NCBI GenBank assembly: GCA_019912545.1
Contig: JAIOIK010000013.1
Coordinates: 1-42,650, forward strand
Length of the DNA stretch: 42,650 nucleotides
Direction of reading: 5' to 3'
Origin: Ignavibacteria bacterium
Lineage (GTDB): Bacteria > Bacteroidota > Ignavibacteria > Tepidaquicellales > OLB5
A program made the position numbers and the translations under genes. The notes below the pieces were generated by a model. It saw only the letters and a list, made by a program, of their open reading frames with translations. It had not been told where the DNA came from and ran no database searches. This document shows positions 8,709 through 10,152 of the stretch, in pieces (within the stretch, counting starts at the first letter, position 1; each line of letters begins with the position of its first letter).

Positions 8709-8745
8709 TGACAAACCTATGTGTTTGTCAATGTTTTGTTTTTAG
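8709..8745 (+). terminator. Hairpin terminator after ppx
   Basis: tgacaaac (8709-8716), loop ctatgt, gtttgtca (8723-8730), then a T-rich tract (atgttttgttttt). A perfect 8-bp stem followed by T-rich sequence right after the ppx stop supports an intrinsic terminator. Confidence 0.6.
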
Positions 8746-8763
8746 GGACGACACGCAGGTCGT
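8745..8763. repeat. REP-like hairpin, copy 1 (downstream of RAYT)
   Basis: gggacgac-acgcag-gtcgt, a palindromic unit with arms acgac/gtcgt. Identical cores (acgacacgcaggtcgt) lie within the neighbouring RAYT gene at 9041-9056 and 9080-9095. Proximity of copies to a RAYT gene is typical of REP elements and their transposase. Confidence 0.7.
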
Positions 8764-8799
8764 TTTCTATGGGTTGAAATTTTCTGGATTATTCTTTTC

Positions 8800-9363
8800 T
8801 CATTCCCATTTTAAAGGATTATACAAAATATAATTCCTGATGTTTTCTAATTCTTTTTCATTTCTTATAATCCTGTCATAAAAAGATCTCTGCCAAAGGT
8901 GCTTGTCAAACGGAGGATAAATATTTTCTTTTACTCCGCGTATGTATTCATTGGTTGTCATTGTTTTAAACCATTGAATAACCCTGGATAGAGAAATGCG
9001 AGTTTGTTTTTCTGAATTACCTGGAACGATTCTATCCGGTACGACACGCAGGTCGTCGGGTACTGGTTTGTTTTCAGGGACGACACGCAGGTCGTCCCCT
9101 ACAAGATGTTCGTTGAAGAGAAAAATTATGCCGTGTATATGATTTGGCATAATGATGAATTGGTCAAGAACTATTTCGGGGAATTTGTCATCTAGTTCCC
9201 CCCACCATTTACTGATCATTGTTCCCGAGGCTGATAAAACAGATTCCTCATTTTTGATCTCAGCAAACAGATGGTGATGATTGTGTACACAAATAGTTAC
9301 AAAATACCCGTTGTTTGATGAATAGTCAAAACCTTTAAGTCGATTTCGTTTTCTGAACTTCAT
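8800..9363 (-). CDS. REP-associated tyrosine transposase (RAYT, Y1/HUH family)
   Basis: A 187-residue transposase-like protein. It begins FRKRNRLKGFDYSSNNGYFVTICV, has the metal-binding HUH motif in MPNHIHGII (about residues 85-93), and the C-terminal LWQRSFYDRIIRNEKELENI with a likely catalytic Tyr, then NYILYNPLKW. These match the RAYT/Y1_Tnp family that mobilises REP hairpins as single-stranded DNA. Start: ATG at 9363 gives the usual family N-terminus. The part following the HUH motif contains two in-frame translated REP copies (GDDLRVVP and PDDLRVVP). The gene follows truA by 9 bases on the same strand. Confidence 0.85.
   Translation of the reverse strand: MKFRKRNRLKGFDYSSNNGYFVTICVHNHHHLFAEIKNEESVLSASGTMISKWWGELDDKFPEIVLDQFIIMPNHIHGIIFLFNEHLVGDDLRVVPENKPVPDDLRVVPDRIVPGNSEKQTRISLSRVIQWFKTMTTNEYIRGVKENIYPPFDKHLWQRSFYDRIIRNEKELENIRNYILYNPLKWE
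9038..9060. repeat. REP-like hairpin, copy 2, inside RAYT gene
   Basis: Core acgacacgcaggtcgt in the RAYT reading frame, translated on the minus strand as DDLRVVP. Arms acgac/gtcgt enclose acgcag. Confidence 0.75.
9077..9099. repeat. REP-like hairpin, copy 3, inside RAYT gene
   Basis: gggacgac-acgcag-gtcgtccc, a perfect 8-bp stem and the best-preserved of three copies. Translated in RAYT as GDDLRVVP. It starts 17 bases from copy 2. Confidence 0.75.
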
Positions 9364-9372
9364 AGACGACAA

Positions 9373-10152
9373 TCAATATTCAACTTTCTCCAGAAACAAG
9401 CCTGATGGCGGGGCGGTGTATTCGGCGGGATTGAAAACCTCACCCCCGGCCCCTCTCCTGGGAGGAGAGGGGAGTAAAAGAGATTGAATGCTGCTACTTG
9501 ATATATTTCCTCGACCGACTTCTGCGAGTGTGCCGACAATACGGCGGACCATTTTCCATAAAAAATGCGAGGCTTTTATGCGGATATAGATCTTGTTCTC
9601 ATCATCAGTTACTTCAATTGATTCTACAAGACTTTTGGTTGATTTATCCTCAGGTGACTTCTCGGCAAAGGTTTTGAAATCATGCATACCCTCAAACAAC
9701 TCAGAGGCTTCCTTCATTTTCTTTACATCCAGCCTGTCTTTTATCCACCACACAAATCGCTTTTCAAATGCTGTTCGGCGTTTTGAAATTACGTACAAGT
9801 ATTGTCTTGATTTTGCATCATGCCTTGCGTGAAAATTCAGTGCAGCTTTTTCAATTTCAAGTATATTGATATCGGAGGGAAGCACGTCGTTGAGCTTCAT
9901 CTTAAGTATTTCGGGGGCGAGCATTGTTTCGCACTCCAGGTGAGCAACCTGCTCAAGGGCATGCACTCCCGCATCCGTGCGCCCTGAGCCCTGAAGATCT
10001 GCAAACCGGTTAGTGCCTTTGTTGCTCCTAAAGACTTCATGTATGGCCTTTATTATCGTGCCCTGGACAGTTTTTATTTTTGTTTCATTTGGCTGTTTCT
10101 GCCAGCCGGAGTAATTTGCGCCGGCATATTCGAGATATATTTTGAATTTCAT
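9373..10152 (-). CDS. truA: tRNA pseudouridine synthase A
   Basis: A 259-residue TruA that modifies U38-U40 in tRNA anticodon arms. LEYAGANYSGWQKQP at the N-terminus and LQGSGRTDAGVHA (catalytic Asp60) are diagnostic; HARHDAKSRQYLY and FLWKMVRRIVGTL are further conserved blocks. Near the C-terminus an inserted segment LLLPSPPRRGAGGEV, encoded by a GC-rich palindromic repeat (9438-9474), precedes the normal end EYTAPPSGLFLEKVEY. The core enzyme is intact, so it should be functional. The RAYT gene follows on the same strand. Confidence 0.92.
   Translation of the reverse strand: MKFKIYLEYAGANYSGWQKQPNETKIKTVQGTIIKAIHEVFRSNKGTNRFADLQGSGRTDAGVHALEQVAHLECETMLAPEILKMKLNDVLPSDINILEIEKAALNFHARHDAKSRQYLYVISKRRTAFEKRFVWWIKDRLDVKKMKEASELFEGMHDFKTFAEKSPEDKSTKSLVESIEVTDDENKIYIRIKASHFLWKMVRRIVGTLAEVGRGNISSSSIQSLLLPSPPRRGAGGEVFNPAEYTAPPSGLFLEKVEY
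9438..9474. repeat. GC-rich palindromic repeat inside truA
   Basis: cccctctcct (9450-9459), loop ggg, aggagagggg (9463-9472): a perfect 10-bp stem preceded by cctcacccccgg. The codons read SPPRRGAGGEV in truA. This is a different repeat family from the REP copies in the next gene. Confidence 0.75.

Follow-up and report, generated by a model that had tools for sequence, protein, structure and literature searches.

The closest described system is that of the TnpAREP transposases of subclass 2.4 of Quentin et al. (2018; PMC6006769), a subclass equated in that paper with group 4 of the RAYTs of Bertels et al. In this subclass, REPs were described as inserted in the tnpAREP genes themselves, generally in the interval between the HuH and Y motifs and with the frame undisturbed, and Table 1 of the same paper gives NH[IFV]H, WQ and YIxNNP as the HuH, W and Y motifs. 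Intragenic REPs of the GTAG and CGTC types, including the RPEs of Rickettsia, were reported in 2013 to lie in frame, perhaps in flexible linkers or loops of the encoded proteins (PMC3733652).

Three copies of a REP-like hairpin at a RAYT gene

We analysed a stretch of 42,650 nucleotides from an Ignavibacteria bacterium (contig JAIOIK010000013.1; hereafter the window). On its minus strand lies a RAYT or TnpAREP-like HUH transposase gene encoding 190 amino acids (8800..9372, stop included), with a TTG start at 9372 and a possible ATG start at 9363, whose neighbours, named by eye from the open reading frames and not by family search, we take to be truA and a ppx/gppA-like gene. The protein matches the Y1_Tnp family with 23.8 bits at a cut-off of 23. 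A first-pass annotation of this DNA had noted three copies of ACGACACGCAGGTCGT, one 3' of the RAYT gene and two inside it, the latter translated in frame, and both observations are borne out: exact copies are present on the plus strand at 8748-8763, 9041-9056 and 9080-9095, and the two inner ones both read DDLRVV within the minus-strand gene. In a shuffle control allowing up to 3 mismatches, 0.10 copies were expected and 0 of 100 shuffles gave three. The count and orientation of the core over the whole 3.66-Mb genome, proposed as a check by the same annotation, yielded no copies at up to 2 mismatches beyond these three (the reversed-pattern control gave 0) and a direct, not inverted, orientation of the inner pair. 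The paired inverted REPs of a REPIN are therefore not formed by the inner copies. A genome-wide REP family as the source of the copies was rejected, since only three exist. Because there are three genomic copies, two of them within one gene, in place of the many and mostly intergenic copies of a REP, we call these elements REP-like; the same count leaves no sign of present mobility of the family. An Rfam search of the window gave no match.

An intact canonical REP is formed by one copy only, at 9077..9102 (minus strand). It consists of a GTAG foot (9099-9102) and a stem-loop (9077-9098; GGGACGAC-CTGCGT-GTCGTCCC) with a perfect 8-bp stem and three basal G-C pairs (-15.7 kcal/mol), and it encodes VGDDLRVVP (coding strand GTA GGG GAC GAC CTG CGT GTC GTC CCT). 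The second in-frame copy (9041..9056, minus strand) encodes VPDDLRVVP (coding strand GTA CCC GAC GAC CTG CGT GTC GTA CCG) and has an identical core, the foot GTAC and a partly decayed, weaker stem (-8.5 kcal/mol). In the third copy, 3' of the RAYT gene (8745..8763, minus strand), the core is again identical and the foot decayed (-5.0 kcal/mol). Beyond the core, the intact inner copy and the 3' copy have 14 of 16 tail bases in common, and the repeated unit is therefore larger than the palindrome.

Both inner copies are hosted by the DNA (8992..9117, minus strand) of a linker of about residues 86-127 that connects strand beta3 with helix alphaC. In an AlphaFold2 model based on 44 sequences (mean pLDDT 84), beta3 spans residues 78-85 and is followed by coil and then by alphaC at 128-148, with pLDDT values of 52-56 in residue blocks 91-120, compared with 95-98 across most of the core. 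The linker loop is predicted to be disordered and the core well folded, and the structural check suggested in the first pass thus places both inner hairpins within a predicted disordered loop. The adjoining truA carries, near its C-terminus (window 9450-9472), an in-frame palindrome CCCCTCTCCTNNNAGGAGAGGGG with 42 genomic sites at up to 2 mismatches.

Linker hairpins in the genome, the genus and other relatives

All five group-4-like RAYTs examined in the own genome have linker hairpins. In each of the four besides the window gene (L190, L196, L198 and L012/L199), the linker hairpin has a sequence of its own, and in three of the four a 12-mer is common to the hairpin and the own flank. The own-genome RAYTs L009, L011 and L014 show hairpin repeats on both flanks, and none was found inside them.

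Across 44 genomes of the order, a stem pattern is present only in the own genome and in one congener. The congener G402, a sister species, has a RAYT orthologue in the same gap between truA and ppx/gppA with a single inner hairpin, i.e., without the second copy (9041-9056). Between this orthologue and the window gene the hairpin is identical in 24 of 24 nt and 8 of 8 codons, the rest in 329 of 495 nt (66%), and third codon positions are identical at 8 of 8 codons in the hairpin, compared with 60 of 101 same-residue codons elsewhere. We examined 11 truA neighbourhoods of the genus: two retain an intact RAYT, one has a relic, and in the other eight no RAYT was found within 1.5 kb downstream (for one of these the contig offers just 1.1 kb). 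In the relic (L210, congener G401), which sits at the same truA site, the frame is lost just past the HUH motif and the hairpin persists. The same synteny with one versus two inner copies in sister species, and with a RAYT relic or none at this position in the other members of the genus that we examined, constitutes a clean natural experiment on the question of whether REPs are inserted by TnpAREP enzymes.

We surveyed 109 homologous loci, 106 of them usable, from the phylum of the window (29 of 30 loci, window gene included) and from records of many other phyla (80 of 80); these relatives were taken for their top scores against the window protein or against its alignment and are not a random sample. 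L122, L129 and L136, for which the motif regular expression failed, and L044, at a contig end, were left out, and in some rows (e.g., L016 and L023) the linker is shortened by an early W/F-Q/E match. Linker hairpins of at least 7 bp are present in 91 of the 106 relatives and absent at this threshold from 15; dinucleotide shuffles gave an expectation of 15.7, so that the counts at 7 bp include some chance matches. Neighbouring coding stretches of the same genes contain such hairpins in 11/106 and 5/106, the downstream control stretch being shorter (mean 131 versus 192 bases). Hairpins of at least 9 bp occur in 52 linkers, compared with 2.0 by shuffles and with 3 and 3 in the control stretches. 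A total of 141 linker hairpins comprises 58 with a CTAC-type 3' foot, 47 with a GTAG-type 5' foot, 12 with both and 24 with neither; at least two hairpins are present in 42 loci, and 33 of the 106 loci have a REPIN-like pair of a forward GTAG and a reverse CTAC in frame within the linker. The forward feet follow directly after beta3 (median relative linker position 0.06), and the GTAG phases among the hairpins are 49, 8 and 0, phase 2 being the one that creates a TAG stop. When feet were chosen blind to the stem (GT[AG]GGG within 14 codons of the HUH motif; 54 of 106 loci), 47 of the 54 loci showed complementarity at 7 or more of 8 positions (the best result over 11 total lengths), and the phases, GTAG and GTGG pooled, were 46/8/0. 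The stems of these loci vary on both sides, with A-T, G-C and C-G at three stem positions.

The linker, whose absence from homologues had been considered, is present in the relatives, where it holds different hairpins with a tendency to match the flanks of their own locus. Instead of a segment conserved in RAYTs without this REP family, as ordinary coding sequence would be, we found a 12-mer common to the inner hairpin and the own flanks in 41 of 91 loci, compared with 3.3 expected with swapped flanks; in the other 50 no 12-mer is shared with the flanks (up to 1 kb per side), and the inner copy is therefore often not demonstrably cognate. The peptides encoded at the linker site differ among relatives (GADLRVCP, GAGLVPAQ, GATRRVAP, GQPQGIAP and others). 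On a core tree computed with the linker removed, which has few columns, many open forks and a bootstrap that is not settled, the foot label needs 37 changes compared with 40.5 for shuffled labels (35 of 200 shuffles were as low), suggesting that the foot is hardly inherited and that hairpins come and go. One ancestral insertion inherited by all relatives is not supported by this tree.

Origin and retention of the inner hairpins

We favour, with a probability of about 0.68, the reading that the window gene encodes a TnpAREP of subclass 2.4 (RAYT group 4) and that its own REP has entered the part of this gene that encodes the surface loop separating beta3 from alphaC. The HUH enzyme would act on single-stranded REP hairpins with a GTAG foot, and the REP would spread by cutting and joining of single-stranded DNA, mostly near the enzyme's own gene. 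Insertions into the catalytic core would be lost, and those into the disordered loop would survive when the reading frame through them is open (GTA|G, never G|TAG). Loop hairpins are repeatedly gained and lost, and a resident copy retains its base pairing over at least the divergence of two sister species. The second inner copy would be younger or less constrained, having been added either as another insertion or through duplication in place. Uptake of own hairpins by a tolerant loop would explain why the hairpins match the flanks, avoid the TAG phase, turn over and are confined to the loop. The first-pass annotation had proposed that the coding region of the transposase took up its own substrate, which could show self-targeting. 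Its own REP-like hairpins are indeed in frame, and uptake is their likeliest origin; that the enzyme itself placed them we infer from the cognate match and, in part, from the published biochemistry of TnpAREP. Their retention would be mainly a matter of tolerance, and the exact identity with the sister species exceeds what pure tolerance predicts, albeit over 24 nt that are a short stretch and were chosen for being REP.

An alternative, which we consider unlikely, is autoregulation, in which the inner hairpins are kept because the RAYT binds them, either in the mRNA that encodes it or in its gene when single-stranded, and thereby limits its synthesis or marks the gene as a substrate. Because the pairing is kept, this explanation retains some probability: the two-sided stem changes of the foot-selected loci, the complete identity with the sister orthologue and the occurrence of a hairpin in most relatives would all fit. 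However, 15 relatives are without a hairpin at the threshold used, the foot is distributed almost at random over the tree, which a fixed regulatory element would not be, and REP copying yields the same compensatory pattern without selection. It is less probable still that the second inner copy (9041-9056) is no more than a 39-nt tandem duplication of the slippage type, uninformative on transposase activity. The inner copies are spaced, start to start, exactly 39 nt or 13 codons apart, a period with which a second copy can be added with the frame intact and which allows plain tandem duplication, and the sister gene has a single copy. Through the 39-nt unit of the intact copy, one of the three sense-strand frames is open, the foot GTAG and CCCTGA giving TAG and TGA in the others. 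However, the 39-nt units of the two inner copies match at 26 of 39 positions, and their tails outside the 16-base core at 6 of 16, whereas a recent duplication should be alike throughout; the intact inner unit is closer to the 3' copy (33/39). That selection acts on DDLRVVP as a functional linker, with the similarity of the DNA only secondary, i.e., the selected peptide suggested in the first pass, is very improbable, since the kept frame and the occurrence of DDLRVV twice in the window gene and once in the sister gene are set against peptides that vary among relatives at the same place, a loop with low pLDDT and predicted disorder, the identity of the sister hairpin even at all third positions, paired DNA bases that are kept, and a core that also lies outside the gene.

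In-frame palindromes in other HUH genes and comparison with known systems

The own genome also offers a second RAYT lineage (L045; C174:42065-42595), flanked on either side by its own perfect palindrome GAACAAGGGGGCATGCCCCCTTGTTC, which recurs once within the gene, in frame as EEQGGMPPCS; the wider AACAAGGG-N8-CCCTTGTT family has 21 own-genome copies at up to 1 mismatch. None of the Y motifs listed in Table 1 of PMC6006769 is matched by L045, whose motifs read DHVH, LWAQ and YVKHNR, and in-frame own palindromes therefore do not look unique to subclass 2.4. Of 394 other genomes of the phylum that were searched, 5 have relatives of L045 (the own genome being the sixth among 395), always within a large frame of 767-1273 aa.

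In these five other Bacteroidota genomes (loci L046-L050 and L154-L158), the whole Y1/HUH domain lies in frame within the methyltransferase of an MmeI/Eco57I-like restriction enzyme, before the NPPY motif, and Pfam matches on four of the five nested proteins comprise Eco57I in two stretches, Y1_Tnp and MmeI-type domains. Empty-site homologues (G061, G076 and G033) read GNSLIDD...VF-xxGGFDVV[IV]GNPPY without an insert; the filled genes have an insert of about 165 residues or more at this position, in which the HUH and Y residues look intact by eye. The filled genes carry a perfect or near-perfect in-frame palindrome, namely ACAAGGAGTTGCAACTCCTTGT as NKELQLLV in three, AACAAGGGGTTTAAACCCCTTGTT twice as NKGFKPLV in one, and a different palindrome, CCACCCCAAGCTAAAGCTTGGGGTTG, in another. 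Palindromes of the AAGGG...CCCTT type lie just behind the gene or its early-closed remainder in four of the five (none just behind L157), and the inner ACAAGGAG...CTCCTTGT shows a paired change compared with the 3' ACAAGGGG...CCCCTTG. There were no plasmid records for this lineage. Search listings of the literature returned no paper describing a Y1 domain inside Eco57I/MmeI-type enzymes and no description of a second RAYT lineage with its own in-frame palindromes. The main text of PMC6006769 holds no word beginning with 'restriction' or 'methyl', and the paper states that a few unexpectedly long proteins, attributed to fused genes or to errors of annotation, were discarded. A specialist may not have seen the nested restriction-enzyme form. 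We tentatively raise the possibility, which we regard as rather doubtful, that Y1 HUH enzymes in general, and not subclass 2.4 alone, take up their own palindromes and that this uptake can scale up to a whole HUH domain as an in-frame insert in a methyltransferase. If true, RAYT and REP would together be a mobile element at the level of protein domains that needs no splicing, and the restriction enzyme might have been lent a hairpin-directed single-strand nuclease. The nested HUH domain and its empty-site relatives would make protein-level mobility of RAYTs directly testable.

Like subclass 2.4 as described in PMC6006769, the window gene has HuH and W motifs (IMPNHIHGI and LWQRSF) that fit NH[IFV]H and WQ, a long variable insertion between beta3 and alphaC, seen in the alignment and in the model, a canonical long REP (9077-9102) with a GTAG foot (GT[AG]G in the subclass) and three basal G-C pairs, and in-frame intragenic REPs inserted between HuH and Y. 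Its Y motif reads YILYNP (YIYYNP in the sister), one residue off YIxNNP, with Y181, N185 and P186 invariant across 44 aligned relatives. Unlike that subclass, it has a REP family of three copies that all lie at the gene, and it scores 60.8 bits against NCBIfam REP_Tyr_transpos, under the cut-off of 80. With the intragenic REPs of PMC3733652 it shares short palindromes in frame within protein genes; there, however, the targets were varied and unrelated genes, whereas here the palindromes sit in the gene for the element's own transposase. Foldseek with the model of the window protein matched the IS608 and ISDra2 transposases and E. coli TnpAREP (4er8), and the PDB, searched with a profile of 22 relatives, gave 4er8 as the single matching chain. 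The HUH/Y1 fold is common to the window protein and 4er8 (Foldseek TM 0.55 by query length, 3.5 A, 17% identity), but the family profile matches 4er8 in two separate pieces, as expected if the loop of the window family falls between the pieces. Own hairpins in frame, called unusual in the first-pass annotation, are already published for subclass 2.4 (PMC6006769) and are a common habit there, as the relatives and own-genome RAYTs surveyed here also indicate; the phenomenon itself is known, and what the window gene adds is a good new example with an informative sister species.
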